DNA from: an uncultured Pseudomonadota bacterium
Lineage (GTDB): Bacteria; Myxococcota_A; UBA796; GCA-2862545
Length of the DNA stretch: 64,000 bases
Direction: 5' to 3'
Assembly (NCBI GenBank): GCA_913061235.1
Contig: CAJXTB010000006.1
Location: 186,001 to 250,000, forward strand
Shown: positions 42,658-59,632 of the stretch, in pieces
Position numbering within the stretch: position 1 is the stretch's first letter
Layout of the letters: each line of letters opens with the position of its first letter
The notes under the pieces: generated by a model
Seen by the model: only the letters and a program-made list of their open reading frames with translations
Told to the model about the DNA's origin: nothing
Databases searched by the model: none
Program-made: the position numbers and the translations under genes

Positions 42658-42888
42658 TACCGCAGCAGCAATGGCCCGTCCGAGCCACTTTCTACGTTTA
42701 CGCGTTCCCAGACCCTCTCCCTCCGGCGCTACTCTACCGGTTGTTGTTGCGGATTGTTGTGTGTCGAGTCCTCATGATCCTTGGCGCGAAGATTCCTTGC
42801 CGATTTTAGTGAAGGCTTGCGAGTCAGCGAACACGTAGTGCCGGACCCATCTGCATTCGGTTACGCGCGCAATGGACGGGAGCTCCTT

Positions 42889-45009
42889 TTGGCAAATGAC
42901 AGTGATAATTCCATATTGTCCAGATTCTCCCTGGCCGAAATCATTCCGATTCTTCGGGCGAATCGCTGGTTGATTGTGCTGTGCACGCTCGGTGCGTTCT
43001 CCATGGCGTTCGTCGGTACGCTGATGACGACCAAGCAGTACCAAGCCACCTCGATTCTGCAGTTGAACCCGTCCAATGCCAAAGAAGTCAAGGTAGACGA
43101 CGTTGTCGACTTTGACATCCGTGGCATCTACGAGACTGAGCGCTTTTACCGGACTGAGCTGGCGCTCATGCGTACTCGGACGACCGCCCTTGAGGTGATT
43201 CGTCGCTACAACGACCTTCAGTACGACGACCTGACCATCGAGAAGGGCGTGCCTCGGTTGCTCGGCATGCTCACAGTGTTCCCACGTGAACGCAGCAGCT
43301 TGATTGAGATCTCGATCACAAGCCCAGACCCGCACAAAGCGGCTCTGCTCTCCACGTTGTACGCCCAGGCGTACGTGGACTTGAACCTCGAGTCTCGTCG
43401 TTCAGCGAGTCGTGAAGCCAAGGTGTGGCTTGAGACCAAGATTGAAGAGTACGAGCTGAAGGTTGCTGCTTCCGCCGCTGAGCTCATTGAGTTCAAGCGC
43501 CAACATGACGTTGTAGACCTTGAAGACACCGTCACGGCTGTGTCCGAGCGCATGGACGAGATTGACGAGCGCTACGGCCGCGTCAGTACCGACCGCCTGC
43601 TGCTCACCACCAAGATGGCCAGCTACGACGAACTGCTCGCTCAGAACAAGGTGGCCGAGCTGGCCGAGGTTCTGGGAACGCCTACGCTGTTGGCGTTGTC
43701 TCGCATCTATGCCGAGGCCCGCACCGACCACGCAACGGTGGGGGCACGTTACGGCGAGCGTCACAGCCGCTACCAAGAGTCGGCCGCTACGTTGACCCGG
43801 ATTCGTGAAGAGCTGCGTCGTGAGGTGAGCTCCGCCGTTGAGGCCGAGCGCGCTCGGTTGTCGTTGTTTCAGGCAGAAGAGACCAGCTTGCTCGACGAGA
43901 TCGATGCGGTGCAGGAGTCTTTGCTCACCCGTCAGGGGTTCCAAGCTGAGTTCGACCAGAAGCGCTTGGCCTACGAGCGCAGCGAAGCGTTCTTGCGGCG
44001 TCTGTCCCTGCGCAGTGATGAGCTGTCGTTGTCGTCGCGCACACAGCTCAACAATGCACTGCTGCGTGAGCCGGCCCGGGTTCCAACAGGACCCATCTCG
44101 CCAAACCTCTTCCTCAACTTGCTTGTAGGTCTGTTTGCCGGTGCCGGTGCCGGGTTTGGTCTGGCCTTCTTGCGCCACTCCATTGACGACAGCATCTCGT
44201 CGCCAGAAGACGTCACCAACTTCTTGGAAGTTCCGTTCCTGGCCATGGTTCCCAAGGTGCAAGCACCGCCGGGCGTCAACCCCGACCTCATCACCTACAC
44301 GGACCGTCGCGGCTTGGCTGCCGAGTCCGTACGTGGCCTGCGGGCCTTGTTGGAGATGAACCCGAATGGCCGAAAGGTTCAGCGCCTGTTGGTCACCAGT
44401 GCCGTGGCCTCAGAGGGCAAGACGAGCATGTGTGTTCGCCTTGGCATTGCGTACGCCGAGTTCGGCCGTCGCGTTCTTCTGATCGACGCCGACCACCATC
44501 GTCCGCGCGCTCACAAGGTGTTCAAGATGGAGAACAACCTGGGCGCTCTCGACATCATGCGCGGTCAGTGCTCCATTACAGACGCCGTCATGCCCACCGA
44601 GATTCCCCACGTGGACTTGTTGTCGCTCGGCGCCCGCGGTGCAGATGCTGCACGACTGTTCGCCTCGGACGACTTCATTACGCTCGCTGACGAGCTGCAA
44701 GAGCTCTACGACTTGGTCATCATTGACACGCCGCCGTCGGCAACGTTGTCTGAAGCCATCCAGCTGTCGCCGCTTGCGGACGGAGTCATCTTCGTGGTCC
44801 GTGCCGGCAAGGTGTCTCGTCGCGTTGTGCGTCACACCGTCGACCGCTTCAAGAAGGTGGACGCGCGCATCTTGGGCGTGGTCATCAATGATGTCGAACC
44901 TGTTGCTACCGGTGCCTACGGGTACTTGTACGGCTACAAGTATGGCTATGGTCCATACGGCGCGCCGAGCGACGACGACGATGCCGAGGACCAGCAGGTC
45001 GCTGGATGA
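42889..45009 (+). CDS. Wzc-like polysaccharide co-polymerase and tyrosine autokinase
   Basis: The protein is about 706 residues. TTG 42889 is chosen because GGGAG lies six bases upstream; the frame extends to 42781 without a ribosome-binding site. The first membrane helix (LIVLCTLGAFSMAFVGTLM) follows a short N-terminus, then a Wzz chain-length domain with a long periplasmic coiled coil. The second helix (LFLNLLVGLFAGAGAGFGLAFL) leads to the cytoplasmic BY-kinase: Walker A ASEGKTS, Walker A' LLIDADHHRP, and Walker B DLVIIDTPP. The C-terminal tyrosine cluster (YGYLYGYKYGYGPYG) is the usual autophosphorylation site. It controls chain length and export of the polysaccharide together with the Wza-like protein. 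Its last codons overlap the next gene (ATGA). Confidence 0.92.
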   Translation: MANDSDNSILSRFSLAEIIPILRANRWLIVLCTLGAFSMAFVGTLMTTKQYQATSILQLNPSNAKEVKVDDVVDFDIRGIYETERFYRTELALMRTRTTALEVIRRYNDLQYDDLTIEKGVPRLLGMLTVFPRERSSLIEISITSPDPHKAALLSTLYAQAYVDLNLESRRSASREAKVWLETKIEEYELKVAASAAELIEFKRQHDVVDLEDTVTAVSERMDEIDERYGRVSTDRLLLTTKMASYDELLAQNKVAELAEVLGTPTLLALSRIYAEARTDHATVGARYGERHSRYQESAATLTRIREELRREVSSAVEAERARLSLFQAEETSLLDEIDAVQESLLTRQGFQAEFDQKRLAYERSEAFLRRLSLRSDELSLSSRTQLNNALLREPARVPTGPISPNLFLNLLVGLFAGAGAGFGLAFLRHSIDDSISSPEDVTNFLEVPFLAMVPKVQAPPGVNPDLITYTDRRGLAAESVRGLRALLEMNPNGRKVQRLLVTSAVASEGKTSMCVRLGIAYAEFGRRVLLIDADHHRPRAHKVFKMENNLGALDIMRGQCSITDAVMPTEIPHVDLLSLGARGADAARLFASDDFITLADELQELYDLVIIDTPPSATLSEAIQLSPLADGVIFVVRAGKVSRRVVRHTVDRFKKVDARILGVVINDVEPVATGAYGYLYGYKYGYGPYGAPSDDDDAEDQQVAG

Positions 45010-46418
45010 CCTTCGTCGACCGCATCTTTGGACGCCTAGACCACACTCGCTTTGCGATTATGGCGCTTGGCATCGGGGCACTCATCGGCGCACTTGCGGT
45101 GATGGACCCCCGTCTGCCCATCTTGCTGCTGGCGCTCGCTGTCGGCGGGTATGTGGCGCTGTCGCGACCAGAGATTCTGGTTCCGCTGCTGTTTTTAGGC
45201 ATCATGATGGAGGCGAGCGGTAAGACGGGACTTGCGATTGCCGGCCTTCCACTCACTTTATCCAAGATTGCAGTTCTCGGGATGGTGTCTGTTTGGGCCA
45301 TTCGCTCTGCTGTGGAGAGGCGGCCGTTCTTGAAGCCGCTTCCGTTCACCGGGGGTATGGTGGTCGTTGCCATGTCCATGGTGATTGGCGTGGGCATTGT
45401 GGGCTCTGCCGGGCCGGGTCAGATCCAGACGGTGTTGAGCTTCGTGATGGTGTGTGTGATGGCGCACTTGATCGAGCGGATGATCCCTATCAATCGGCTT
45501 TCCTGGCTTATCCGAGTGATGGGAATCACGACGATCGGCATCATGTTGACGCAGTTCTCAAAGAGTCCGGTCGAGTCCGCACTGGACGACCGGTACTCGG
45601 GCGCATTCCTAGACGCGAACAACTGGGCCATGATTCTGCTGTTGATTGCGCCCCTCATTCTCGCTGTGTACGCGGAAGAGAAGAACCGACTTTGGGCCAT
45701 TCCAATGGCGCTGTTCGTCGTGCTTCTCGGTGCCAACATTCTTCAGTCGTTGTCGCGCTCTGGTCTCATCACCTCGTTGCTGGTGCTGCCGGTCATCCTG
45801 ACAATCTCGTGGCGCCGCTCGTGGATATTCCTTGTGGCGCTAGGGCTGTTGCCCTTCGTTATTGGCGCGTTCGTCTCGATGGACGCCATGTATGACCGCT
45901 ACATCACCCTGGTTGACCAGACCTACGGTGAAGCCGACGGCAGTATGTTGCAGCGGGCTGAGCTGGCGCGTACGGCGTGGCTATTGTTCCGCGAGAACAT
46001 GGTGTTTGGCGTGGGTCAAGGGCACTTTATCGACAGTGCCATGGCCAGAACGAACGGCAACGCCCACCTCATCGCTCACAATACCTACCTGAACATTGCG
46101 GCGGAGCTTGGGCTTGTGGGCCTCGCTGCTCACGCCTTTCTGTTCTTTGTGGTGGTGCGACAAGGCGTGCAAGCGGTCTTCCGGGCCAAGACGCGTCGTC
46201 TCCAGCGGCTAGTGCTCGGCTACGCGGCGGGTATGCTCTCGTTTGCGCTCATGAGTGCCACACTCAACAACATTGCATTCCCTATGGGATACTTTGTTCT
46301 TGGCCTTGGCGCTGTCATATGCCGCGCAACGTACATGAGTAAGGAGGAGCTGGAAGCGGTCGATTTGGGTGACCCCACGACCGACAAGCCAGGCTCTCTA
46401 CTTGCGCAGGCCGCATAG
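45006..46418 (+). CDS. Wzy/O-antigen ligase-like polysaccharide polymerase
   Basis: The 470-residue membrane protein has about 12 hydrophobic helices. It carries the Wzy_C domain, with SLSRSGLITSLLVL and the large-loop end AHNTYLNIAAELGLVGLAA, whose histidine and arginine residues are typical of polymerases and ligases that act on undecaprenyl-linked glycans. It is translationally coupled to the Wzc-like gene (ATGA at 45006-45009). In this place it is most likely the Wzy polymerase of the exopolysaccharide. Ligase activity cannot be excluded by sequence. It is the second Wzy_C protein of the window; the first, at 40327-42657, has a TPR tail. Confidence 0.87.
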   Translation: MTFVDRIFGRLDHTRFAIMALGIGALIGALAVMDPRLPILLLALAVGGYVALSRPEILVPLLFLGIMMEASGKTGLAIAGLPLTLSKIAVLGMVSVWAIRSAVERRPFLKPLPFTGGMVVVAMSMVIGVGIVGSAGPGQIQTVLSFVMVCVMAHLIERMIPINRLSWLIRVMGITTIGIMLTQFSKSPVESALDDRYSGAFLDANNWAMILLLIAPLILAVYAEEKNRLWAIPMALFVVLLGANILQSLSRSGLITSLLVLPVILTISWRRSWIFLVALGLLPFVIGAFVSMDAMYDRYITLVDQTYGEADGSMLQRAELARTAWLLFRENMVFGVGQGHFIDSAMARTNGNAHLIAHNTYLNIAAELGLVGLAAHAFLFFVVVRQGVQAVFRAKTRRLQRLVLGYAAGMLSFALMSATLNNIAFPMGYFVLGLGAVICRATYMSKEELEAVDLGDPTTDKPGSLLAQAA

Positions 46419-46559
46419 TGTTCAGTGTTCTACCAAGCCGGGTTGTTGTGCCCGGTCCGGTCCGAGAAACGGGCGAATCAGAAGCTACAGACGTGTATTC
46501 GTCATTGAATCGACCTTGGGGCTTCACGCTCGATGGTCGGGTCCGGTGGGTCGACTCAT

Positions 46560-47981
46560 ATGGTATTTAACTCGCTGACTTTCATTGTTTTCTTCGTAGT
46601 GATTCAGGGCGCCTACGCTCTGCTCCCTACGTGGAAGAGCCGCAAGATTCTGCTGTTACTGGCCAGCTACTTCTTCTACGCCGCGTGGAATCCGCCGTTC
46701 GTCCTGCTGATTATTCTGTCGACGGCGATTGACTTCGTTCTCGCTCGCAAGATTGCAAAGTCGACTGTGCAGAGGCACCGCCGCTTGCTGTTGATGGGGT
46801 CTCTCGCGGTGAATCTGGGACTGCTGTCCTACTTCAAGTACTCGCCGTTCGCGTTGGAGTCGCTTCAGCAAGCACTGGCCGTTGTAGGCATTGTCTGGGT
46901 GCCGCCAGAGTGGGGCATCATCCTGCCGGTTGGCATTTCGTTCTACACGTTTCAGACCCTCTCCTACACCATTGATGTGTACCGGGGACAGCTAGAGCCG
47001 AAAGAGTCGCTGCTCGACTTCGCGTTGTTCGTGACCTTCTTCCCACAGCTCGTCGCCGGCCCCATTGTGCGCGCCGTCGACTTCTTGCCGCAGCTCGCAG
47101 TGCCCCGGGTAGTCACCTCAAAACAGTTTGGCTGGGGATTATCCCTCGCAACGATTGGTCTGTTCAACAAGGTGGTGCTCGGAGACGGGCTCATGGCGCC
47201 GGTAGTCACGGCTACCTTTGACCGCTGGGCCTTGATCAGCGGAGGCGAAGCGGTCCTTGGAACGCTGGCATTCACTGCTCAAATCTTCTTCGACTTCTCG
47301 GGCTATTCGACAATCGCGATTGGCGTTGCGATGACCTTTGGCTTTGCACTGCCGGACAACTTTCACTTCCCCTATGGTGCGCGCGGGTTTAGTGATTTCT
47401 GGCGTAGATGGCACATTTCACTGTCATCATGGCTGCGAGATTACCTATACATCTCGCTAGGTGGCAACCGGCGTGGCGACACGCGAACCAACATCAACCT
47501 CATGACAACCATGCTGTTGGGTGGGCTGTGGCATGGCGCCAGCTTTCGGTTCCTTGTTTGGGGCGCACTTCACGGTGCCTACTTGTTTATTGAGCGGACC
47601 ATTGACGCGAAACTCGGTCATTTGTCCTGGTACCACACCACGGTTGGCCGCCTTGCTGGCTGGTCACTGACCTTGGGCGCCACCATGCTGGCATGGGTGT
47701 TCTTTCGGGCCCCGTCGGTTCAGGGTGCGTTCGGTATGTTGGTATCTATGGTCACATGGGCTCCTGGCTCGTTCGACGCCGTCAACTCGTTGACGTCGGT
47801 CATTGTGGTCCTTGTGTTCGGCCTGACGGTCTGCTGGCACTACCTTTTTCGAGATGTCCGTGTGGAGACGATGGCTCAGGCCGTTCCAGTTCCACTGCGT
47901 GCTGTGCTGCTCGGCGCCATGCTGTTCATCTGCATGATGGCGCCTGGAAATAGCACCGCCTTCATCTACTTCCAGTTCTAG
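46560..47981 (+). CDS. MBOAT family O-acyltransferase (AlgI-like)
   Basis: The protein is 473 residues; ATG 46560 opens with a membrane helix (MVFNSLTFIVFFVVIQGAYALL), which rules out the nine-residue longer form. The polytopic layout and motifs match AlgI: GISFYTFQTLSYTIDVYRG, FFPQLVAGPIVR, FSDFWRRWHISLSSWLRDYLYI, and GLWHGASFRFLVWGALHG with the catalytic histidine. It moves an acyl group, usually acetyl, from the cytoplasm to the periplasm for polysaccharide modification. The next gene encodes an SGNH-like protein nine bases downstream, the usual partner that completes transfer to the glycan. Together they make O-acetylation of the exopolysaccharide likely. Confidence 0.93.
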   Translation: MVFNSLTFIVFFVVIQGAYALLPTWKSRKILLLLASYFFYAAWNPPFVLLIILSTAIDFVLARKIAKSTVQRHRRLLLMGSLAVNLGLLSYFKYSPFALESLQQALAVVGIVWVPPEWGIILPVGISFYTFQTLSYTIDVYRGQLEPKESLLDFALFVTFFPQLVAGPIVRAVDFLPQLAVPRVVTSKQFGWGLSLATIGLFNKVVLGDGLMAPVVTATFDRWALISGGEAVLGTLAFTAQIFFDFSGYSTIAIGVAMTFGFALPDNFHFPYGARGFSDFWRRWHISLSSWLRDYLYISLGGNRRGDTRTNINLMTTMLLGGLWHGASFRFLVWGALHGAYLFIERTIDAKLGHLSWYHTTVGRLAGWSLTLGATMLAWVFFRAPSVQGAFGMLVSMVTWAPGSFDAVNSLTSVIVVLVFGLTVCWHYLFRDVRVETMAQAVPVPLRAVLLGAMLFICMMAPGNSTAFIYFQF

Positions 47982-47989
47982 GAGCTCTT

Positions 47990-48991
47990 GTGCCTCCATC
48001 ACTGACTAGTCCAAACAACCGCTTGCCTACTGGGCCTTGGGCGCGCACTGCCGTCCTCGGTATTCTCATTGGCGGACTGACCCTTGCGGCGGTCGAGCTG
48101 GGGTTGCGTCGCGTTGGGTATGAGGCGTCGGTCAATGACGATGCCCAGCTGTGGGCCTTGGAGTACCGCGACCGGCCGGATGACGCGTGGCTGACACTCG
48201 GCTCCTCGCGAATCGCTTGTGCGTTTGACCTGGACACCTTCGAGGAAGTCACCGGGGAGCCGGTTGTTCAGCTTGGCATCAGCTCGGGACAACCCATTGC
48301 CATCCTCACGTACTTGAATGAGCAGGGGTTTGATGGGAAGCTGATTGTTGAGGTTTCACCATATGTTTGGTTTACAGACAACCCGCTGATTGCTCAGCAG
48401 GCGGTGCTGACTCTTCAGACGCTGCACGACCAAGAACGCGCCCTGTTGGGGGGCCTAGAGCGACGTGCCACGCGTGTTCTTCAGTCTCAGCTGCGCATCT
48501 TGCACTCTGAGACCGATCTGTTTGACTTGGCCAAGGCCGTCGTCAAGCGGGCTCGGCCGGTCATCCGTCAGTCCGTTCGAGGGGACCGTCAGCGCTACTG
48601 CTGGCCGTCACGATACGCGTTGATGCCGGACATGCCCATGCCAGACGAGTCGTGGGCAGTGACGGAGCGGGCACCCAAGGATGAAGCGTCCTTTGATGAG
48701 GTCACAGTCGCTATTCAGGGCATCATGGCTCGTGGTGGCACCGTGTTGCTGTTTGCGGCTCCCGAAGCCGGAGACCCCCGAGATGTTCACCTGCTGTCCT
48801 ACCCCGAGTCGGTGTACGCCGAGGTCCTCGCGGAGCGAACCGGTGCGCCCTACGTCAACACCATGACCGACCCGACCATCGGTGCGCTTGCGGTTCCGGA
48901 CTACAGCCACATCGACGCGTCAGACGCTCCGCTGTTTACCGAGCGACTGGTCGAGCTGTACCGGGAAAAAGGGTACTTCCTACCGGATTAA
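47990..48991 (+). CDS. Membrane-anchored SGNH-like protein, partner of MBOAT
   Basis: The 333-residue protein begins at GTG 47990 after GGAG. One N-terminal membrane helix (ARTAVLGILIGGLTLAAVEL) places the rest in the periplasm. The soluble part has GSSRIACAF, fitting the nucleophile block of SGNH hydrolases, and near the end DYSHIDASDA, fitting the D-x-x-H block. Length and order match the AlgJ/AlgX-like proteins that transfer or remove acetyl groups on polysaccharides. Overall similarity is weak and only the key blocks support it. It lies directly after the MBOAT gene and converges on the flippase gene. Confidence 0.75.
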   Translation: MPPSLTSPNNRLPTGPWARTAVLGILIGGLTLAAVELGLRRVGYEASVNDDAQLWALEYRDRPDDAWLTLGSSRIACAFDLDTFEEVTGEPVVQLGISSGQPIAILTYLNEQGFDGKLIVEVSPYVWFTDNPLIAQQAVLTLQTLHDQERALLGGLERRATRVLQSQLRILHSETDLFDLAKAVVKRARPVIRQSVRGDRQRYCWPSRYALMPDMPMPDESWAVTERAPKDEASFDEVTVAIQGIMARGGTVLLFAAPEAGDPRDVHLLSYPESVYAEVLAERTGAPYVNTMTDPTIGALAVPDYSHIDASDAPLFTERLVELYREKGYFLPD

Positions 48992-48996: not shown

Positions 48997-50421
48997 CTAT
49001 AGGCGAACGAGCCGCGCCAGGTCTGACCGCGTGACCAGCCGCATTGCCACAACGATGACCCCGTAGACCAGGCCACCTAGACCCACACGGATGAAGACGT
49101 GCAGCGAAGGGGTCGCGAGTACGACCGCAGTCATAGCGATTAGTGCAGGAATGAGCTTAATGACGGGCGTCACGTAGTCCACGCTTGTCGCGACTCTACG
49201 AACGGCCCAGGCCTGGAAGGCCACCAGGAAGATGTCTGCGGCGAGCGTTGTTGCAGCAGCGGCAGCGGCTCCGTACTTGGGGATAAGCACGATGTTGAGG
49301 GCCACGTTTCCAATGGCTGCGACTGCAAGCCCGCGAGCGCGTAGTGCCGGTAGGTCCAATGCATTCATGGTCATGCCGGTCGCGTTGCTCAAGAAACGCA
49401 GCGGAACCATGGGGAGCAGCCACAGCATGGGCAGGGCGGCTGAGGCGTAGCGGTCATCAATGGCGGCGACCACGAGCGGCTCGGCGACGAGCATGCCTCC
49501 GACAGCGAGCGGAAGACTCAGCACCAGGAGGACGTGGATGGCGAAGGTCAACTCCTCACCGGCCTTCTCGAGCTTTCCGTGGAGAGCGGCCATTCGAGGG
49601 TACAGACCGCGCAGCACAATGAACGACAGCACCGGTAGATGAACCACGGCGAGCGAGGCCACGCGGTACACAGCGACCTCTTCTTCACCGCGCAGGTACT
49701 CGAGCAGAATGACGTCGGCCAGCAGGTAGATGGAGCCAAAGAGTTGGACGCCTGCGAACGGAATGCCAGCCTTCATCAGGTCCGTCATGTCTGGTAGCGG
49801 CACGCGGTTGGGCCACGGGCCGACCTGTTTGCGTACGGCGACGAGTAGCATGCCCATTACAATGGCCAGTCCGAGGGCTTGGCCGCCGTATACCGAGACC
49901 ACCGAACCACCGAGCTCTACAGCGATGATGGTAGCGATGACCATTGTCAGGCGTCCAACAATCCACGCCGGTCCAATGGGGGCTAGGCGGGACAAGCCCT
50001 GTAGGACGGCGTCTGCAATGACCATCATGCCGTTGAAGAACAGCCCGAGCGACGCGACCAACGCCGCTACAATGACGATAGGACGGCCATCCTGTGCCGC
50101 GACCCACAGCGCCGACAGGATGAAGCCTAGCGGTGCCAGGGTAATCGTGATGGCCTGGCCACGGGCCATCCACGTGGAGGCACTGTCGGGGTCGCGAGCG
50201 ACATTCCGGGCGATGAGGGGCCCGACGCGCATCTGTACGATGAACGTAATCATGGCCAGGACAGAGCCAATGAAGGCGATGGTGCCGAACTCGCCCTTGG
50301 TGAAGGAACGGGCCAGGTAGATCTGAAGCCCCAGTCCGGCGAGAATCTGTGTTCCTTGCTGGACGGCGCTCGCAGTAATGTTGCTGGTGAGCAGCCGGCG
50401 GAAGCGACTCACCGCAGGCAC
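48997..50421 (-). CDS. Wzx-like polysaccharide flippase
   Basis: The protein is 474 residues, with 13-14 membrane helices typical of the polysaccharide transporter/MVF-like flippase family. The first helix contains ITASAVQQGTQILAGLGLQI, then YLARSFTKGEFGTIAFIGSV, a common flippase opening. It would move undecaprenyl-linked repeat units across the inner membrane. GTG 50421 is ten bases after galE, so wza-like, galE and this gene form a minus-strand operon. The substrate specificity is not visible. Confidence 0.9.
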   Translation of the reverse strand: MPAVSRFRRLLTSNITASAVQQGTQILAGLGLQIYLARSFTKGEFGTIAFIGSVLAMITFIVQMRVGPLIARNVARDPDSASTWMARGQAITITLAPLGFILSALWVAAQDGRPIVIVAALVASLGLFFNGMMVIADAVLQGLSRLAPIGPAWIVGRLTMVIATIIAVELGGSVVSVYGGQALGLAIVMGMLLVAVRKQVGPWPNRVPLPDMTDLMKAGIPFAGVQLFGSIYLLADVILLEYLRGEEEVAVYRVASLAVVHLPVLSFIVLRGLYPRMAALHGKLEKAGEELTFAIHVLLVLSLPLAVGGMLVAEPLVVAAIDDRYASAALPMLWLLPMVPLRFLSNATGMTMNALDLPALRARGLAVAAIGNVALNIVLIPKYGAAAAAATTLAADIFLVAFQAWAVRRVATSVDYVTPVIKLIPALIAMTAVVLATPSLHVFIRVGLGGLVYGVIVVAMRLVTRSDLARLVRL

Positions 50422-51454: not shown

Positions 51455-52279
51455 TTAGAACACCGACTTACGTAGGTACATTTGGTCGCCGGGGCGCATG
51501 ACAATGTTGGCGTCTCGACCGTCGAGAATGCGCTTGAAGTTGATGACGATTCGTTCGCCATCACGAAGGATGTAGGCACCGCGCAGGCGTGCGAACTCCG
51601 ACGGGCCACCGACACGGGTCAAGGCCTGGGTGACAGTGAGGCTCTCGGCGAACAGCAACGCACCGGGGAGCTTGACTTCGCCACCCACGAAGACCTGCTG
51701 GCCTTCGGGAACTAGGACGACGTCTCCTGCTTGAAGGTACATGTCGCCGGTCGCGCTGCTGGCGAGGTCTGTGTAGTTGACCACAAGCTCGGTGCCGTCT
51801 TGCCGACGCACGCGGACCTCACCAATGCTCTTGTCGTTCTCAATGCCGCCAGCGCGGGACAGGAGCTGGAGCAACGAGGTCTGACCCTGCAGGTAGTATT
51901 CGCCGGGTTGTTCCACAGCGCCGGTCACGTCAACGCGCTGGGAGCGGTGTTCGACGACTTGCACGGTGACTTGGGGGCGGATCAGGAAGCCGTCTCGCAG
52001 GCGCTCTTCAAGGTGAGCTGCGAGCTGGTCCTTGGTGCGATTGCCTACGTCGATAACGCCGAGCTCGGGTAGTCGGAGCGTGGCTTCGTCGTTGATGACA
52101 AAGCGGCCGGACAGGGATGTCTCGCCAAAAACCGTGATTTCTACAATGTCGCGCGCGCCCAAGTTGTACTCGGTGGGCATGGGTACGCTTGCGTTGGCGA
52201 CCCACTCAGCGGCGGTGCCTGGCTGAGCGTTTGCCAAGGTGGCGACGGTGATGAGTGCGGCGATGAAGAGCGTTCGCAT
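51455..52279 (-). CDS. Wza-like polysaccharide export protein with SLBB domains
   Basis: The protein is 274 residues from ATG 52279, with GGAG upstream; the longer frame is discarded because it puts the signal peptide inside. A cleavable signal (MRTLFIAALITVATLANA) has no lipobox, unlike classical Wza. Residues about 35-120 are the poly-export domain (YNLGARDIVEITVFGE) and two SLBB-type domains follow (VDVTGAVEQPGEYYL and VFVGGEVKLPGALLF). The C-terminal amphipathic helix that forms the Wza outer-membrane pore is missing, so the protein may be periplasmic and need another outer-membrane partner. It works with the Wzc-like protein, which lies on the opposite strand 6 kb away. It starts the operon with galE and the flippase. 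Confidence 0.88.
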   Translation of the reverse strand: MRTLFIAALITVATLANAQPGTAAEWVANASVPMPTEYNLGARDIVEITVFGETSLSGRFVINDEATLRLPELGVIDVGNRTKDQLAAHLEERLRDGFLIRPQVTVQVVEHRSQRVDVTGAVEQPGEYYLQGQTSLLQLLSRAGGIENDKSIGEVRVRRQDGTELVVNYTDLASSATGDMYLQAGDVVLVPEGQQVFVGGEVKLPGALLFAESLTVTQALTRVGGPSEFARLRGAYILRDGERIVINFKRILDGRDANIVMRPGDQMYLRKSVF

Positions 52280-52473
52280 TCGGGAACTCCGATAAGTGAG
52301 TGGGTTGGTGTATCGAGCACACAAACCCTTCATGCGGAATCGTATATCTCGGTCCACTTTGTTTGATGGTTTCCCAACGGATCAACACCAACACCTCAAC
52401 TACGCCTGCACCGGGGTTTTGGATCTCTCACCAAGCTCCCACGGTGTTACGAGCGCGCAGTTGGAGGTCCTGT

Positions 52474-53244
52474 ATGCCCTTTGTCGTCCGTCGCGGAACC
52501 GGCCATATCGAGAAAGAAGCCTTTGGAAATATGGAAGACCGGTGGAGTGCGGACTGGGAAGCGTTCAAGGACAGTCCCGACCGTGAATTCGCCGACACCG
52601 AGCACTTCGAAGTCCTGCAATCTCGCGGAATGATGCCCAAGAAGGGTGGCCGCATTCTCGAAGGCGGCTGCGGCTACGCCCACTGGGTTCGCTCGCTTCA
52701 TGACATGGGCTACAGCGTTGTGGGTCTCGACTACGCACAGTCGGCGATTGACCTGTCGACTGAGCGTTGGCCCCACTTGGAGTTGGTCCAAGGGGACCTG
52801 CGCAAGATGCCCTTCAAAGATGACGAGTTCGATCTCATCATCAGCCTCGGCGCTATCGAGCATGACGTCAACGGCCCGGAAGCGGCGCTGGCCGAGCTTC
52901 ATCGTGTCCTCAAGCCGGACGGCATCATGCACTGCTCGGTTCCGTGTATCAGCGGCTACCGCCGACTCGGTGCGCTGCCCGTTCGGGAGTTCTTGGTGAA
53001 CAACCCGACGGTTCGTCGCCTCACCGGCCGGCATCCGACCACCGAGTTCTACGAATACAACTACACAATTCCCGAGTACAAAGCGCTGCTAGAAGCCAAC
53101 GGCTTTGAAGTCATCGAGATGGTGCCGCTGCACTACCACACCCGTCTGGCTCGTGGACCGCTCAAGCCAATCATCCACGCGGTTCATGACCTTCGACCAA
53201 GCTTCTTTGCCCACATGGTCACCGGTTTGGTACGCAAGAAGTAG
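52474..53244 (+). CDS. SAM-dependent methyltransferase (Methyltransf_11 type)
   Basis: The protein is 256 residues. ATG 52474 has GGAGG six bases before it; the extended frame to 52300 overlaps the promoter region of the Wza-like gene and is rejected. SAM-binding motifs are ILEGGCGYAHWVRSL (motif I; Glu-Gly-Gly in place of the usual Asp/Glu-x-Gly-x-Gly spacing), VVGLDYAQSAID, LVQGDLRKMPFKDDEFD, and the post-motif LHRVLKPDGI. The context suggests methylation of a sugar or lipid part of the polysaccharide. It begins the plus-strand run of six genes ending at 58024. Confidence 0.88.
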   Translation: MPFVVRRGTGHIEKEAFGNMEDRWSADWEAFKDSPDREFADTEHFEVLQSRGMMPKKGGRILEGGCGYAHWVRSLHDMGYSVVGLDYAQSAIDLSTERWPHLELVQGDLRKMPFKDDEFDLIISLGAIEHDVNGPEAALAELHRVLKPDGIMHCSVPCISGYRRLGALPVREFLVNNPTVRRLTGRHPTTEFYEYNYTIPEYKALLEANGFEVIEMVPLHYHTRLARGPLKPIIHAVHDLRPSFFAHMVTGLVRKK

Positions 53245-53309: not shown

Positions 53310-53558
53310 ATGGCTGACGAAACGAGTCATCGCGCGGCAGTTCTCGCCGCGCTCATACAAGTCCGCGAGGACAAAGGTCTCACCGAGGCCGACCTAGCGG
53401 ACACCAAGCATCTGGGCGACGACCTGGGCCTGGACTCGCTGGACATGGCGACTGTCGTTGCGGACTTGGAGATTGAGCTCGACCTCGACCCATTCGTCAA
53501 CGACACAGGACCCATCTACACCGTGGGCGACCTCGTTCGCGTTTACGACGCGGCTTAG
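53310..53558 (+). CDS. Acyl carrier protein
   Basis: This 82-residue acidic protein contains LGLDSLDMATVV, with the serine that takes the 4'-phosphopantetheine arm (position 46) in the DSL motif. The helical layout is normal for ACP. ATG 53310 has GGAG six bases upstream. It stands immediately before an AMP-binding ligase and a ketoreductase, not in a fatty-acid synthase operon, so it is a dedicated carrier for this locus. It would present an acyl or amino-acyl group to the ligase and reductase. Confidence 0.9.
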   Translation: MADETSHRAAVLAALIQVREDKGLTEADLADTKHLGDDLGLDSLDMATVVADLEIELDLDPFVNDTGPIYTVGDLVRVYDAA

Positions 53559-53561
53559 AGC

Positions 53562-54857
53562 GTGACCGGACCGGCTCCAACGGTTCTCGCGCTCGCAGCC
53601 GACCAGCCGACAAGACCGCTGCTCGTTGTTGGTGAGCAGGTCGTGACCTGGGGCTCCGCGTGGGAGGCTGCACAGGCCGTGTCAAAGGCTCTGAGTGCGA
53701 CCGGTCACGCGCTGGGCGTTGTGGGTACACCCGATGTCTTGCTGACAGGCTTGCTGGCCGGCAGTGCATCGAGTGCCCGCGTTCTGCTGTTGCCGGACAG
53801 CCCAAGCGACGAGCGCATAGCCGAGCTGGGTCTGAGTGCTTTGCTGACCGACACTGGCCTGCGACAGGTCGGAGAGTCTCCCGGGCATGCTCCCGGTGTG
53901 GTCGTGTTTACGTCGGGCACCACTGGGGTTCCGAAGGCCGCTATCCACACTTGGCCGTCGTTGATGGCGCGCGTGCGGGTCCGCGATGAACTGGCGGGCA
54001 TTCCGTGGTTGGTCCCGTACAGCCTACGTGCCTACGCGGGCCTTCAGGTCTTGCTCCACGCCCTCGCGAACGGTGGAAGCGCGGTCGTCAGCACTGGCTC
54101 CCCTGGAGAGGCGGCGTCCGTGGCGGCTGAGCACGGTATTACCTACCTCACAGGCACCCCCACCTTCTTCCGCTTTCTGCTGGCGACGGCTCCGAGAGAG
54201 GCGATGGACGCGCTCAAGCCCGTGCAGATCACCCTCGGCGGCGAAGCAGTAGATCAGCCTCTTCTCGACCGTCTCACCGCCCGTTTTCCAGGGGCTCGTG
54301 TGGGGCATATCTATGCATCGACCGAGCTGGGAGCGTGCTTTAGTGTGCACGACGGCCGCGCCGGCTTTCCCGCAGCTTGGCTAGATGACACCACCCGCGC
54401 CATTGGCCTGACGTGTCGAGATGGCGAGCTGTACGTACGCTCGGAGCGCGGCATGCAGGGCTACCTGAGCAACGAGAGCGCTGCGGCGGAAGACGGCTGG
54501 TTCGCCACGGGTGACCACCTTGCGATTACCGGCGACCGTGCCGTCTTTGTGGGCCGGGCGAGCGAGCGAATCAACGTTGGCGGGGCCAAGGTGTACCCGG
54601 GCGAAGTGGAAGACGTGCTGCGCCAGGTTCCTGGTGTTGTCGCGGTGCGAGTGAGTGGCATCTCAAGCTCGCTCGCGGGTCAGCTCGTTCAGGCGGAGCT
54701 GGTGGCCGAATCAGGTGCGGACACACGAGCGCTTCGCCGTACCGTGCTCGGATATGCGCGTGAACACCTGCAACCTCATATGGTCCCGCGGCGACTGGTC
54801 TGGGTCGATACCCTCGAGCAGAACGCGTCGGGCAAGCTGAATCGGAGAACGTCATGA
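53562..54857 (+). CDS. Acyl-AMP ligase/acyl-CoA synthetase-like enzyme
   Basis: The protein is 431 residues, shorter than the usual 500-550. The adenylation signatures are VVFTSGTTGVPKA (about 114-126), IYASTELGACFSV, GWFATGDHLAI, and GRASERINVGGAKVYPGEVE, followed by ASGKLNR with the catalytic C-terminal lysine. It should activate a carboxylic acid as acyl-adenylate and load it on the adjacent ACP or CoA. The truncated N-terminal part suggests a minimal substrate lobe, which is seen in acyl-ligases of small cassettes. GTG 53562 lies three bases after the ACP stop, and the 3' end overlaps the SDR start (ATGA), so all three are co-translated. Confidence 0.87.
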   Translation: MTGPAPTVLALAADQPTRPLLVVGEQVVTWGSAWEAAQAVSKALSATGHALGVVGTPDVLLTGLLAGSASSARVLLLPDSPSDERIAELGLSALLTDTGLRQVGESPGHAPGVVVFTSGTTGVPKAAIHTWPSLMARVRVRDELAGIPWLVPYSLRAYAGLQVLLHALANGGSAVVSTGSPGEAASVAAEHGITYLTGTPTFFRFLLATAPREAMDALKPVQITLGGEAVDQPLLDRLTARFPGARVGHIYASTELGACFSVHDGRAGFPAAWLDDTTRAIGLTCRDGELYVRSERGMQGYLSNESAAAEDGWFATGDHLAITGDRAVFVGRASERINVGGAKVYPGEVEDVLRQVPGVVAVRVSGISSSLAGQLVQAELVAESGADTRALRRTVLGYAREHLQPHMVPRRLVWVDTLEQNASGKLNRRTS

Positions 54858-55582
54858 GTCGAGTTGTGGTTGTCAGCGGCGGAAGCCGCGGTCTCGGAGA
54901 GGCCATCGTTCGGCACTTGCTTAAGCAAGGAGACACCGTCTGCACGTTCAGCCGGAGTCGCACGCCTGCAATGGACGAGCTGGAAGCCGGCGAGAACGGA
55001 GAGCGGTTCCTCTTTGAGTCCGTGGACATTGCGGACTCAGACGCCGTTCGTGCCTACGTCAAGCAGGTGGTCAAGCGCTACGGCAAGGTCGATTGCCTGA
55101 TCAACAACGCGGGTATCGCTCGCGATGGCCTGCTCGCCATGCAGTCAGATGCCGAGATTGACCTACTGCTCGGCGTGAACCTCAAGGGCACGTTGAGCCT
55201 GTCCCGTGCGTGCATTCGTCCCATGCTTCGTGCCAAGAAGGGTCGGATTATCCAGATCTCCAGCATCATCGGTCAGCGTGGCTACCGGGGACTCGCCACC
55301 TACGCAGCCACGAAAGCGGCGATGGACGGACTGACCCGTTCGCTGGCACGTGAGCTTGGAGAGCGGAACATCACCGTCAACTCGATTGCTCCGGGCTACC
55401 TCGACACCGAGATGAGCCACGGCTTGGACGACAACCAGCGCGGCCAGATCATCCGGCGCACGCCGCTAGGCCGGTTGGGTACACCCGCCGATATCGTGGG
55501 TCTCATCGACTACTTACTGTCTCCAGCAGCCGACTTTGTCACCGGACAGACCGTCGTTGTCGACGGTGGCATCACGGTCTGA
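54854..55582 (+). CDS. FabG-like 3-oxoacyl-(ACP) reductase, SDR family
   Basis: The 242-residue protein is a classical short-chain dehydrogenase. It has the nucleotide site SGGSRGLGEA, NNAG (about 79-82), the catalytic serine in QISSIIGQRG, YAATK, and the PGYLDTEM loop. The C-terminal PADFVTGQTVVVDGGI is the standard FabG end. It probably reduces a 3-oxo group on the acyl chain carried by the adjacent ACP. Its start overlaps the ligase stop and its stop lies one base before the next gene. A sugar oxidoreductase role is the main alternative. Confidence 0.9.
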   Translation: MSRVVVVSGGSRGLGEAIVRHLLKQGDTVCTFSRSRTPAMDELEAGENGERFLFESVDIADSDAVRAYVKQVVKRYGKVDCLINNAGIARDGLLAMQSDAEIDLLLGVNLKGTLSLSRACIRPMLRAKKGRIIQISSIIGQRGYRGLATYAATKAAMDGLTRSLARELGERNITVNSIAPGYLDTEMSHGLDDNQRGQIIRRTPLGRLGTPADIVGLIDYLLSPAADFVTGQTVVVDGGITV

Positions 55583-55583
55583 C

Positions 55584-56624
55584 ATGGGACTTGTTCAAGG
55601 TGTCCTAGACGCCGACACGTTCGACGCTTTCGCGGACTTTGCCGGACAGACTTGGCCTGATCAGCCGACAGACCGCGACTGGCTGCGCTGGCGCTATCTA
55701 GATGCACCGGGTCAGGAGATGCGCATTGCTGTGCGTGACGGAGAGGTCGTTGCGTGTCTGGGTCTACGTCGCCGACAGTGGGTCTACGGCACGGAAGTTC
55801 GTGAGGCGGGTGAGACCTTTGCGTGGTTCTGTCGTCCAGATCTGCGCATGACGGGCTTGGGAATTCGGCTGATGAAGCGGGCAATGGCCGACGTCATTCC
55901 GCTGATTGCGGTGGGTGGCTCCGAAGATACGCAGACCCTGCTTCCGCGGCTTGGCTGGAACAAGACGGGTGAGGCTCCGACCTTCGTATTGCCCTTGCGT
56001 GGAGCGGCCATCGCGCGGCCGATTCAGGCGCGGACCGGCGTTCCTCCCATGCTGAGCACGCCGCTGTTCAACGCGGTTGGGCGTCATCTGCTGCGTCGAA
56101 CGGTGTCGGTGCCAGCAGGCGGGACTGTGGTGCCCATGGCGTCATTGGGCTCCGATGTCGCGGCTCTGTATGGACCGGGGCAAGGCACGGACCTGTGCGC
56201 GATTCCCGACCCCGACCAGAGTCGCTGGATGGGCGGGAATCCAGGTCAGGGCACCCATTTTGCGCTGTACTTCCGTGTCCATGGCACCTTGGTGGGCTGT
56301 GCCCAGATGCGTGTGTACAACATTCGCGGCGAGAGCAGTGCTGTCATCACCGAGATGTGGTCGCCGCAGTCAGACGCCGCCATCTGGCAGTGGATGGTAG
56401 GTACGGTCGTGTCGCATGTCCGCGGCTTTGGCGTGGACACCGTACGTGCGCGTGCGTGCCATGCTCCGCTTCAGGCCGCACTTCGACACTACCGATTTGT
56501 CGTGGCCGCTACGCAACCGCTGTGGATCTGGGCCGGTCGCAAACAGACACCGCCCGTTCATCACCCGCATGTGCAGTTCGACCTCGAAGACCACGCGCTG
56601 CTTCCTCTGGCGGAGCGGACATGA
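55584..56624 (+). CDS. GNAT-fold acyltransferase
   Basis: The protein has 346 residues; ATG 55584 lies one base after the SDR stop. The N-terminal half carries a GNAT core: WLRWRYLDAPGQEMRIAVRDG, VVACLGLRRRQWV and the acetyl-CoA-binding FCRPDLRMTGLGIRLMKRAM. The second half is another GNAT-like unit with weaker conservation (LVGCAQMRVY, AAIWQWMVGTVVSH), so it may be a double-GNAT or FemAB-like protein. It could transfer the acyl group made by the ACP/ligase/SDR genes to an amino sugar. The substrate is not visible. Its stop overlaps the next gene start. Confidence 0.8.
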   Translation: MGLVQGVLDADTFDAFADFAGQTWPDQPTDRDWLRWRYLDAPGQEMRIAVRDGEVVACLGLRRRQWVYGTEVREAGETFAWFCRPDLRMTGLGIRLMKRAMADVIPLIAVGGSEDTQTLLPRLGWNKTGEAPTFVLPLRGAAIARPIQARTGVPPMLSTPLFNAVGRHLLRRTVSVPAGGTVVPMASLGSDVAALYGPGQGTDLCAIPDPDQSRWMGGNPGQGTHFALYFRVHGTLVGCAQMRVYNIRGESSAVITEMWSPQSDAAIWQWMVGTVVSHVRGFGVDTVRARACHAPLQAALRHYRFVVAATQPLWIWAGRKQTPPVHHPHVQFDLEDHALLPLAERT

Positions 56625-58024
56625 CTGCGGTGACGGTTGTGGTGGGTGCACGCAGCCGTCCAGAGTGGGCCGTTCCTGCCGCACAAGCACTGCTGGATGC
56701 TGGCTACCGTGTGTTGTGGTGCGAAGTGCCAGAGGCGCTCCCTCGTTCGTTTGGCGCGGTTGCTGAGGCGTACCTGACCCGCGAAAACGTGGCCTTACCC
56801 CCCGCCGGCGTGACGCTGTGCGCGTTGAATCGCACTGTGGGTCCGCTGGTTTGGGGCAGCACGTCGCCGGCTCCGTTGGACAAGACGGTGTTCCGGGTAC
56901 GGCTGGCCGGGCAGTGTTGGCCGTCGTCTCTTGTGGGCTTGCCGGGCACAGCAGGTCGCTTGCGGAGCTGCCTATTGTCCGTGTCTCAGGGGGAGGCCGG
57001 GGTCGAGCGGCAGCATGCGTCGGGCACGGTTCGCGCAGACCCTCGCTCTCCGCTGCGCACACGGGCAGCCGCGGCCAGCAAGGTCGGAGCCCTCTTGGTT
57101 CAGGCACTGTCTTCCCCGTCGGAGGATGCGGTTGTGACGCAGCCGCGCTTGCGTACGCCTGGGGCCGTTGCCAGTGTAGGAAAGATTGGCGCGCGCTGGG
57201 CACTGGACCGCTGGCGTCTGCGTGGTCACGTGGACCAGTGGCAGATTGGCTTTCGCTTTGGTGAAGACCCGCTCAGCCCAGACGGATTCACCTGGCCCGA
57301 ACCTCCGTTGGACCGCTTCTGGGCCGACCCTGTGCCGCTGGTTCATGACGGCGCGTACTACGTGTTCTACGAAGAGCTTCTGTACAGCGACTGGATTGGC
57401 CGGTTGAATGTGGCCCGTGTCTACCCGGATGGGCGCTTTGAGCCCCTGGGTGTTGTTCTCGAGATGCCCACACACCTGTCCTTCCCCCAGGTCTTTCACG
57501 CAGACGGTGAGCTGTGGATGGTGCCGGAGACCTTGGCGCTGGGCGAGATTGCGCTGTACCGCTGCGTCGACTTTCCTCTGCGGTGGGAGCGGCACTGTCG
57601 GCTGGCCGAAGGGCGGTGGGTCGATACCGCTGTGTTTGAGACAGACGACGGCTGGGCCATGCTGACGTCGCGAACCGACGGTCCAGCAGAGAGCGGAAAT
57701 GACAACCTATATGCGGCGACAGCACCGTCACTTCAGGGACCGTGGACCGGCCTAAACCGGCCGGTGTGTGTCGATATCCACGGCGCGCGTATGGGGGGCG
57801 CACCAGCACGTGTGGACGGCAAATGGGTTCGGCCTGCGCAAGACTGTGCGGTTCGGTACGGCCACCAGCTTCGCCTGTCCACAGTGCACGCTGTGGGTGC
57901 CGACCACCTCGAAGAGACACCGCTAATGACGTGGTCTCCGCAGTCTGGTGAGCGCGCGCGACACAGCTGGGGAGTGGCCGGAGACCTGGTCGTCACCGAC
58001 CGACAAGTACGCCGGAAGCGCTAG
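56621..58024 (+). CDS. Protein with GINT1-like beta-propeller domain
   Basis: The protein is 467 residues, starting at ATG 56621 in an ATGA overlap with the acyltransferase gene. The N-terminal 170 residues are unassigned. Residues about 195-460 resemble the five-bladed propeller domain found in glucosamine inositolphosphorylceramide transferase (GINT1)-like and formyltransferase-linked proteins: DRFWADPVPLVHDGAYYVFYEE, LSFPQVFHADGELWMVPE, and RPAQDCAVRYGHQL. This fold is related to glycosidase family 43 propellers. It may bind or act on glycans at the polysaccharide locus. Active-site acidic residues of GH43 are not clear, so glycan binding is as likely as catalysis. It ends against the convergent GT4 gene. 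Confidence 0.68.
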   Translation: MTAVTVVVGARSRPEWAVPAAQALLDAGYRVLWCEVPEALPRSFGAVAEAYLTRENVALPPAGVTLCALNRTVGPLVWGSTSPAPLDKTVFRVRLAGQCWPSSLVGLPGTAGRLRSCLLSVSQGEAGVERQHASGTVRADPRSPLRTRAAAASKVGALLVQALSSPSEDAVVTQPRLRTPGAVASVGKIGARWALDRWRLRGHVDQWQIGFRFGEDPLSPDGFTWPEPPLDRFWADPVPLVHDGAYYVFYEELLYSDWIGRLNVARVYPDGRFEPLGVVLEMPTHLSFPQVFHADGELWMVPETLALGEIALYRCVDFPLRWERHCRLAEGRWVDTAVFETDDGWAMLTSRTDGPAESGNDNLYAATAPSLQGPWTGLNRPVCVDIHGARMGGAPARVDGKWVRPAQDCAVRYGHQLRLSTVHAVGADHLEETPLMTWSPQSGERARHSWGVAGDLVVTDRQVRRKR

Positions 58025-59160
58025 CGCCCGTGGGCCAGGGCTTCGTAGCGGTCGAGCTGAATCGCGGTCTGCCGGTGAAGGTCGAAGCGCTCGAGACCGC
58101 TCTTTTGGGCAGCAGTTGCGAGGCGCTTTCGCAGTGGCTTGTCGTTGGCCAGCTGCAACAGCGCTTGTGTGAGCGCCTCTACATCTTCGCTGGGGACCAA
58201 CAGGCCGGTCTCGCCGTGGGTGATGACCTCGGGAATGCCGCCAACGTTCGAGCCAATGCACGCGAGCTTGGAGCAGGCGGCCTCGGCAAGAGCCAAGCCT
58301 AGGCCCTCGTTGCGTGACGGCTGTACGTACAGGTCCGCCGCTCCGAGCAGGTCTGGAACATCGTCGCGGAAGCCGGCCCACAGCATGTCGTCGTCAACGC
58401 CGAGCTCGGTGGCCAGGGCGTGAAGCGCATCGGTGCGGTGCTGCTGAAGGTCGCCGCCAATCTGAAGCAAGAACAGCTCGGGTCGCTGTTCCTGGGCTTT
58501 GGCGAAGGCACGCAAGAGGATGTCGACCCCTTTGACGTCTCCGTGAAAGGCGGTACAGGCCACGACAATGCGCTTGCTGCCAATGCCCAGTGCTTTGCGA
58601 ACGGCGGCACGAGTCCGGGCAGCTTTCGGCGGCTCAATCCCCATGTAGTGCAGCACCATTCGCTCGTCTGCCAGGCCGCGGTCGGTGTACGCCCGGCGAG
58701 CGGCTAAGGAGACAGCCTCGGTGACGGTTGCCAGCTGAACGCGGGCTTTCGCCAGGGCCTTGGACCGTTTTCGCAGACGCCCGTAGGTCGGGTGTGCGTC
58801 GAGAATCTGGTGAATGGTCAGCAGGGACGGGCGACCGGTCAGCCGTGCCGCGAGCAGCCCCGAGGTCATCGCGGGTTGGTAGTGCGCATGAACGACATCT
58901 ACGCCAAGTTCACGGATGAGCTGGGTGATGTGGACGAGTGTCTTGAGGGGGCGTCCGGCGCTCTTGTAGACATGGGAGACAGCGCCCGCAGCGGCCAAGT
59001 CACGCACCACCGCATCGCTCGTTGGAGCGCCTTCCCACAAGATGTGCAGCTGGTGTCCACGCTCACGGGCCTGGCTTGCCAACGCCATGAAAGCACGCTC
59101 ACCACCGCCATACTTACGGGAGGTCAGTCCGGTCACTTCGAGAAAGGTCAGCCCGGACAT
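58021..59160 (-). CDS. GT4 family glycosyltransferase
   Basis: The protein of 379 residues has the two-domain GT-B layout. The N-terminal domain contains YGGGERAFMALASQ and DVVHAHYQPAMTSGLLAA. The C-terminal GT4 domain has CTAFHGDVKGVDILLRAF and the donor-site SRNEGLGLALAEAA (E-x7-E), then GGIPEVI and GETGLLV. It transfers a sugar from a nucleotide donor to a growing lipid-linked glycan. The donor is unknown. ATG 59160 starts the gene; its stop overlaps the end of the propeller gene at 58021-58024. It is the only clear glycosyltransferase of this locus, so others needed to build the repeat unit must lie elsewhere. Confidence 0.92.
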   Translation of the reverse strand: MSGLTFLEVTGLTSRKYGGGERAFMALASQARERGHQLHILWEGAPTSDAVVRDLAAAGAVSHVYKSAGRPLKTLVHITQLIRELGVDVVHAHYQPAMTSGLLAARLTGRPSLLTIHQILDAHPTYGRLRKRSKALAKARVQLATVTEAVSLAARRAYTDRGLADERMVLHYMGIEPPKAARTRAAVRKALGIGSKRIVVACTAFHGDVKGVDILLRAFAKAQEQRPELFLLQIGGDLQQHRTDALHALATELGVDDDMLWAGFRDDVPDLLGAADLYVQPSRNEGLGLALAEAACSKLACIGSNVGGIPEVITHGETGLLVPSEDVEALTQALLQLANDKPLRKRLATAAQKSGLERFDLHRQTAIQLDRYEALAHGR

Positions 59161-59632
59161 GTGGCTCCTAGCGAGCTGTGGAATGGCGGTGTCTTGGGTC
59201 GCACGCGAACGCCCACTACCCGCTCACTGCTCGTGTGTCTTGCTGGCGGTTTCCTTCACTTAGGGCGATGATTAGAATCGCTCCGTCGTCTCGGTGGCGT
59301 CGGCCCAAAACAAACACGCCCGCCACACCAAGGGTGCAGCGGAGGACTTGGTCTTCATGGACCGGCAGGTATGTCGGAAGCTGTGAGCGGTCGGGCTCTT
59401 GGAGAACGCCTCAGATGACGCTGTGAACGGGTTCGTAGGCGTCTGTCGCGTCATCATTTCCTGGTCTGCGCTCATGTTGACCGATTGGTAGGGATGGGCA
59501 GGGCCGCTGAAGTCGCTTCGATTCGCCTCGCTTATCCGCGTTGCATGGAACGAATCCGACTCTGCATCCAAACGATTGGTTGAAATTCTAGCGAGGCTAG
59601 GTAGAGTTTTCTCCTGTCGCCGGGGAGGGTGC
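59161..59632. other. Divergent intergenic region, no gene seen
   Basis: These 472 bases separate the GT4 gene (minus) from the largest hexapeptide gene (plus). Short open frames on both strands have no ribosome-binding site or recognisable product. The right end holds the candidate promoter at 59580-59607. The length leaves room for long regulatory sequence or an unrecognised small RNA. Confidence 0.5.
59580..59607 (+). promoter_or_regulatory. Candidate promoter of the large hexapeptide gene
   Basis: TTGAAA (59580-59585) and TAGAGT (59602-59607), 16 bases apart, match five and four of six consensus bases and end 26 bases before the ATG. CTAG occurs twice in the spacer (59588-59591 and 59597-59600), but the function of these copies is unknown. 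Confidence 0.35.

Follow-up and report, generated by a model that had tools for sequence, protein, structure and literature searches.

A block of four adjacent plus-strand genes in an exopolysaccharide locus lies in the 64,000-nucleotide stretch of DNA analysed here (the window; contig C6:186001-250000 of a 7.18 Mb genome). It encodes a dedicated acyl carrier protein (ACP; 53310..53558, 82 aa, with a GLDSLD phosphopantetheine site), a short AMP-forming acyl ligase of the ANL superfamily (53562..54857, 431 aa, GTG start), a FabG/NodG-like short-chain dehydrogenase/reductase (SDR; 54854..55582, 242 aa, YxxxK intact) and a tandem GNAT acyltransferase (55584..56624, 346 aa from ATG 55584). We find that ACP-ligase-SDR is one conserved, portable unit, and we tentatively read the block, at somewhat short of an even chance, as a dedicated acyl-ACP supply line that would feed a sugar N-acyltransferase of the exopolysaccharide. 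The original prediction gave the coordinates of the block correctly, with gaps of at most three bases or overlaps between the genes (+3, -4 and +1), whereas its treatment of all four genes as a unit does not hold, since only ACP-ligase-SDR is conserved and the GNAT is a variable partner. The list of open reading frames starts the GNAT at TTG 55536; ATG 55584, one base past the SDR stop, is the likely start.

The conservation of the three-gene core was established in two samples. A scan of genome contigs returned 37 ligase loci, of which the 31 at 36% identity or more were kept and six (L072-L077, 27-28% identity) left out; this sample is biased in that its loci were chosen by two peptide patterns. 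The family ACP stands directly upstream of the ligase in 25/31 loci, the six without it being Nitrospirillum and Azospirillum sp. B4, and the family SDR lies downstream in all 31, across a gap of ~1 kb in L066. At 28 control loci of other ligases in relatives (L011-L038, ~1.5 kb flanks) the family ACP was found at none and the family SDR at one. The second sample, 398 evenly drawn Pseudomonadota genomes, yielded the ligase in 20 genomes (E≤1e-80), of which one was previously in the set; the ACP is adjacent in 19/19 of the remaining loci and the SDR in 18/19 (exception L129). At E≤1e-50 the ligase is present in six of 377 Myxococcota genomes: four of them (G000, G005, G272 and G313) have the whole triad, G133 has a hexapeptide transferase, the ACP and the ligase at a contig end, and G279 lacks a family ACP and carries only a partial gene of the SDR family, on the opposite side of the ligase. 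The recurrence of the core, in order, in other phyla indicates that the arrangement is not due to chance. As a separate observation, L044, L048, L049, L054, L056 and L057 share a Nitrospirillum-type ligase-SDR-KAS III order without the family ACP, and these loci adjoin a prolyl oligopeptidase gene, assigned by Pfam scan at L048 alone.

The residues expected of each enzyme are in place. The serine that carries 4'-phosphopantetheine is invariant in 26/26 rows of the ACP family alignment, and the window ACP is 45% identical to that of a relative. The ligase scores above cut-off against both PF00501 (91.8 bits) and AMP-binding_C (PF13193, 44.0 bits) and has the ATP-site motif and the C-terminal catalytic lysine of ANL enzymes, the latter present in 29/32 alignment rows with the remaining three gapped at that site. 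Because the PF00501 match starts only at profile position 157, the N-terminal part of the ligase is short or diverged. Its best solved relatives are coenzyme A (CoA) ligases, 4-chlorobenzoyl-CoA ligase first among them; an attempt to read the acid from pocket residues (YASTE in the family versus YGxTE in most relatives, which would suggest a small pocket) was set aside as too weak to use. The SDR keeps its active-site Tyr and Lys in 32/32 rows, as well as an Arg after beta-2 (32/32) of the kind usual in NADPH enzymes. Its best matches are 3-oxoacyl-ACP reductases; it stays outside the FabG equivalogs, at 239.1 bits under the cut-off of 332 for PRK05653.1-1 and 238.2 bits under that of 297.75 for TIGR01830, and it clears only the subfamily model PRK12826.1-2 (224.2 versus 222).

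The setting agrees with what had been predicted in two respects. The locus is an exopolysaccharide locus, the block being flanked by Wzy_C, MBOAT, Wzx, GalE-like, Wza and glycosyltransferase genes, and the block has no fatty-acid synthase partners, in that the flanking genes scanned with Pfam include neither a ketosynthase nor a malonyl transferase or dehydratase. The KAS III profile gave no match within 9 kb of the window ligase, and LuxC and LuxE were not seen at the window locus.

In the mechanism that we propose, the short ligase would use ATP to adenylate a small free acid and load it onto the partner ACP, the likeliest substrate being a short 3-oxo acid, for instance acetoacetate; the FabG-like SDR with NADPH would convert the 3-oxoacyl-ACP to 3-hydroxyacyl-ACP; and the tandem GNAT would then, ahead of export, acylate the free amine of a sugar nucleotide or a lipid-linked sugar, so that the exopolysaccharide would carry an N-(3-hydroxyacyl) amino sugar. 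Loading and reduction are predicted from the protein families, and we infer the identity of the acid, the direction of the reductase, the use of ACP rather than CoA as donor and an amine as acceptor. Activation, reduction and transfer had been proposed before, with a hydroxy acid as the example; the families and the unit fit that sequence of events, whereas activating a hydroxy acid and then reducing it would be chemically odd, and a 3-oxo acid is the better fit to a FabG-like SDR.

We favor this reading for several reasons. The ACP and SDR accompany the ligase at nearly every locus of both samples, against no ACP at the controls; the catalytic residues of all three proteins are kept; and the GNAT follows the SDR so closely in the window, with triad and GNAT found together again in G005, which has no MBOAT at E≤1e-40. 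PseH, a 4-amino-sugar N-acyltransferase, provides a further reason, since a PseH-type GNAT lies at most 400 bp from the ligase in 8/31 loci (on the opposite strand in five of the eight; the TIGR03585 model for PseH is above cut-off in L062 and below it in L065). The structural likeness of the window GNAT to tandem GNATs (Z 16.6-18.5, including 4zm6) and the precedents of vioR in Pseudomonas syringae and of Flavobacterium psychrophilum, both in print, point the same way. The wider neighborhoods of the 31 loci include NeuB within 9 kb in 15, KAS III at many Azospirillaceae loci, a CE4 deacetylase plus a two-lobed GNAT at L041, L042 and L047, a PglD-type hexapeptide gene downstream of the SDR at L058 and a GNAT upstream of the ACP at L046. 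At further loci, a hexapeptide transferase is upstream of the ACP on Rhodobacterales plasmids (L083, L084) and, in Azospirillum brasilense Sp7, the triad is between pseI and a flagellin gene. The unit adjoins unrelated acyltransferases: PseH, two-lobed GNATs with CE4, hexapeptide transferases, and an MBOAT with an SGNH-like partner.

The window GNAT matches PF00583 above cut-off (27.6 bits). A structure model built from five sequences (pLDDT 70, pTM 0.69) has two GNAT lobes, an earlier model from two sequences having been poor (pLDDT 43). Over residues 1-336, the best matches of the model are N-myristoyltransferases (Z 18.5, root-mean-square deviation 4.4, 284 residues), and it also matches the bacterial tandem GNATs 7q3a (Z 17.1) and 2wpx (Z 17.0) and the glucosamine N-acetyltransferase region of 4zm6 (Z 16.6). 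The model thus indicates a tandem-GNAT fold, which alone does not give function. Acetyltransf_6/FemAB has no match in the window GNAT at E≤0.001, and HfsK- and FemX-type chains are not among the 50 structure matches listed, which excludes nothing. Four of 377 Myxococcota genomes hold this GNAT, G000 and G005 with the triad and G115 and G351 with no ligase match. The G005 protein is 34% identical, with a CE4 deacetylase gene between GNAT and ACP; in G115 and G351 the GNAT is near GT4 genes and in part near further exopolysaccharide genes, and in G115 it is beside a CE4 gene. The two-lobed GNATs of L042 and L047 were considered as homologues of the window GNAT and rejected at an hhalign probability of only 42%. 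At L087:8290-9764, in a Myxococcota genome with no ligase match, a CE4 deacetylase gene adjoins the same tandem GNAT. Because its kin occur in G115 and G351, the GNAT is an exopolysaccharide-locus enzyme that also exists apart from the triad, and most simply the triad would provide it with a different donor in the window and in G005. The predicted transfer by a GNAT-type enzyme onto a sugar amine is in keeping with the tandem-GNAT fold and with PseH beside many related units.

Several observations weigh against a supply line to a sugar N-acyltransferase. The GNAT N-lobe retains an RxxGxG-type loop, which fits acyl-CoA donors, and the presence of its kin in the exopolysaccharide loci of G115 and G351, genomes with no ligase match, means that this GNAT family can do without the triad. 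No aminotransferase or CE4 gene was seen at the window locus, the one CE4 match of the genome being on contig C3. The ACP falls just below the PF00550 cut-off (20.4 versus 20.8 bits), and one clade of the ligase occurs in non-glycan, lipid-type settings.

The alternative that survives best is periplasmic O-acylation, in which the acyl-ACP would feed the MBOAT and its SGNH-like partner in a Dlt-like manner, with the ligase in the role of DltA and the ACP in that of DltC. We consider this unlikely, and yet a live alternative because two Myxococcota genomes, G272 and G313, join the block to an MBOAT and SGNH-like gene on one strand, in the order MBOAT - SGNH-like - polytopic gene - ACP - ligase - SDR at L094:562-7169 and MBOAT - SGNH-like - ACP - ligase - SDR - GT87 at L095:332-7019. 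The window locus also has an MBOAT O-acyltransferase (46533..47981, plus strand) with an SGNH-like neighbor (47990..48991, plus strand; GSS and DxxH motifs by eye, no Pfam match). The sole matches of this MBOAT among solved proteins are DltB, which according to the available part of one report takes D-Ala from a carrier protein (PMC12148441). Against this, the pair is ~5.3 kb from the block with three opposite-strand genes between, and MBOAT genes occur in 302/377 Myxococcota genomes, so that presence in the window proves little. The closest homologues of the window MBOAT among the matches listed (~48-53%) belong to genomes with no ligase match except G279, where the homologue (48%) is on a different contig from the ligase. 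The protein scores 146.2 bits against the DltB cut-off of 375 and bears the fused FXYXXF motif seen in enzymes of the PatA type, whose donor is acyl-CoA; the same report, as far as it is available, describes MBOAT-SGNH systems other than Dlt as having no carrier and a C-terminal FXYXXF motif (PMC12148441). The Dlt and PatAB systems (DltA, DltC, DltB, DltD; PatAB) therefore resemble the window in the ligase and carrier (Dlt) and in the MBOAT and SGNH-like pair, and they differ in that the window MBOAT has the fused shuttle motif, does not adjoin the block and scores well short of the DltB cut-off, and in that an SDR is added. Given the separation of the pair from the block, and the lack of an MBOAT in G005 at the threshold given above, we prefer the GNAT over the MBOAT as acceptor of the acyl group in the window. 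The MBOATs of the window, L094 and L095 all end in FIYFQF, and at the latter two loci the combination of a fused-motif MBOAT with ligase, ACP and SDR possibly represents a Dlt/PatAB hybrid, which would be unusual. We also observe that homologues ~50-53% identical to the window MBOAT turn up here and there in several families of the phylum, a distribution that may reflect horizontal transfer.

A second alternative separates the GNAT from the triad: the GNAT would act alone with acetyl-CoA on a sugar amine, and the product of the triad would have another destination, for instance the fifth-gene product (56621..58024, plus strand). The kin of the GNAT without a ligase and its retained RxxGxG loop are consistent with this, as is the 4-base overlap of the fifth gene, from its ATG at 56621, with the GNAT stop. 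The C-terminal half of the fifth-gene product matches PF24793 (GINT1_N), the N-terminal half has no family, and no sequence match to it was found among solved structures. PF24793 is rare (11/356 Myxococcota genomes); it was not found in G005, no link between it and the triad was seen elsewhere, and the GNAT and triad are tightly packed in the window and linked in G005, all of which argues against this alternative and leaves it, in our estimate, quite unlikely.

The third alternative, that the triad produces a small acyl lipid, or some different metabolite, and stands in an exopolysaccharide locus without serving the glycan, arises from the Pseudomonadota sample. There, 13/19 loci have genes of fatty-acyl or amino-acid metabolism as neighbors (a long-chain acyl-CoA synthetase, a thiamine pyrophosphate enzyme, an acyl-CoA dehydrogenase with a tRNA-synthetase-like gene, or a branched-chain aminotransferase), four are glycan loci (L131, L134, L146, L147) and two are not assignable (L129, L130); several labels among the 13 rest on shared clusters, the genes having been scanned in part. 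In a ligase tree of 61 rows, however, the 13 non-glycan rows group together in a single clade (100/100) with the window outside it. The window ligase is sister (99/88) to L041, a stretch of contig C199 of G005, a genome of the window's own family; L041 is placed in Myxococcota, on which ground we take the window to be Myxococcota as well. L041 too has a glycan setting, and glycan settings run over most of the other branches, with 7 label changes versus 20.5 when labels are shuffled. The glycan labels in the tree are author-assigned, 12 rows are labeled unknown (six of them Nitrospirillum-type without ACP), and L131, L146 and L147 have unusual length or composition, which makes their positions unsure. 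Association of the block with capsule genes in other genomes had been proposed as a check, and its occurrence mainly in unrelated metabolic operons as a refutation; glycan loci were found in many genomes and non-glycan loci as well, and the refuting pattern is true for the one 13-locus clade, to which the window does not belong. On this evidence, a metabolite unconnected to the glycan is distinctly unlikely in the window. Near non-glycan triads, L142:4469-6635, L144:10603-12841 and L145:1271-3521 hold acyl-CoA-dehydrogenase-like plus class II tRNA-synthetase-like genes, possibly an amino acid:carrier protein ligase system.

Finally, an SDR acting on a sugar or sugar nucleotide, with the acid loaded and transferred unreduced, would accord with the functional breadth of SDR enzymes and with the scores below the FabG equivalog cut-offs, and is made very improbable by the match to 3-oxoacyl-ACP reductases and by the constancy with which this SDR family keeps beside the ACP and ligase in glycan and non-glycan settings.

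Taken beyond the window, the unit could be a general plug-in acyl-ACP module that evolution has joined, in surface-glycan loci, to four or more unrelated kinds of acyltransferase (PseH GNATs, tandem GNATs with or without CE4, hexapeptide transferases and the Myxococcota MBOAT-SGNH pair), a generalization that we regard as rather unlikely as it stands. Rare N- or O-acyl groups without known genes are found on many bacterial glycans, and if the proposed role is true, a small recognizable unit with a free-acid ligase in place of a ketosynthase would make such decorations predictable from genomes of Myxococcota, Acidobacteriota, Actinomycetota, Planctomycetota and Pseudomonadota. Because the unit is paired with different acyltransferases, one can test directly which enzyme accepts the acyl-ACP. 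The MBOAT-SGNH case, if true, would be a Dlt/PatAB hybrid in which a hydroxyacyl group is exported from a carrier protein via a shuttle-bearing MBOAT.

Among known systems, Azospirillum brasilense Sp7 (NZ_CP033315.1) has the same ACP-ligase-SDR order in a nonulosonic acid setting and differs in its surroundings, which run pseI - ACP - ligase - SDR - KAS III - flagellin with an added abhydrolase and small gene. Rhizobial NodA, NodB, NodF and NodG combine an ACP, a reductase, a deacetylase and an amine acyltransferase in a comparable logic. A Nod-factor-like scheme, drawn from the CE4 genes of G005, L042, L047 and L087, was rejected for the window: its locus has neither a ketosynthase nor CE4, and NodA is unmatched in the family scan. 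The Caulobacter holdfast enzymes HfsH and HfsK, a CE4 and a tandem GNAT acting on exopolysaccharide, recall G005, L042, L047 and L087, whereas the available part of that report describes no ACP or ligase (PMC5362036), and the window lacks CE4 and an Acetyltransf_6 match.

The closest parallels by gene type are the flagellin glycosylation islands of Aeromonas group II and Enterobacteriaceae, which encode an ACP, a 3-oxoacyl-ACP reductase, an AMP-dependent synthetase/CaiC, LuxE and LuxC, and for which the authors, in the available parts of their reports, only suggest a 'liposugar component' (PMC7874193, PMC4875605). Such sets are thus already known in glycosylation islands, and that of the window is a variant, not a new kind of system. 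The islands share with the window the same three protein types in glycan loci with pse genes; they differ in having LuxC/LuxE and flagellin where the window has an exopolysaccharide, and the likeness is one of gene type. In the P. syringae viosamine island (vioB, vioS, vioR, acp), which likewise has a dedicated ACP, a FabG-like reductase and a sugar acyltransferase, deletion of vioR removes N-(3-hydroxybutyryl)viosamine from flagellin; as far as the report is available, the island differs in having a KAS III (vioS) and no AMP ligase among its seven genes, and VioB in place of a tandem GNAT (PMC3927599). Similarly, the F. psychrophilum wfpCDEFG genes encode an O-polysaccharide-specific ACP, a 3-ketoacyl-ACP reductase and an acyltransferase, and nuclear magnetic resonance placed a 3,5-dihydroxyhexanoyl group on an amino sugar of the O-polysaccharide; in the portion of the report available, two ketosynthases stand instead of a ligase and the acyltransferase is PglD-type (PMC6519341). 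The window locus has the dedicated ACP and ketoreductase of a vio/wfp-type route and, in the flanks scanned, no ketosynthase, and we therefore do not assign the block to that type; by our analysis the ligase appears to replace the ketosynthases of these precedents. A literature search, with subscription papers mostly outside its coverage, found no work on the function of any ACP-ligase-SDR set from a glycan locus.

The remaining genes of the locus complete the polysaccharide setting. Upstream on the plus strand lie a Wzc-like chain-length/tyrosine kinase (42781..45009; named from sequence, with homologues in exopolysaccharide loci L086 and L088) and a Wzy_C polymerase/ligase (45006..46418). 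A Wzx-like flippase (48997..50421) and a Wza-like polysaccharide export protein (51455..52357) are encoded on the minus strand, as is a GT4 glycosyltransferase downstream of the block (58021..59160). A plus-strand S-adenosylmethionine-dependent methyltransferase gene (52531..53244; open reading frame from 52300, start 52531 inferred) ends 65 bases upstream of the ACP and is possibly a member of the transcription unit of the block. The locus holds two Wzy_C proteins on opposite strands (40327-42657 and 45006-46418), one of them with TPR repeats. The long proteins encoded at positions 59576-63109 and 24198-26033 contain numerous hexapeptide (left-handed beta-helix) repeats, the former also with a Big_7 domain and an apparent lipoprotein-type signal, so that its repeats may be extracellular. 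The protein encoded at 26186-28957 joins a transcriptional regulator C-terminal domain to an NB-ARC/NACHT-type ATPase domain.

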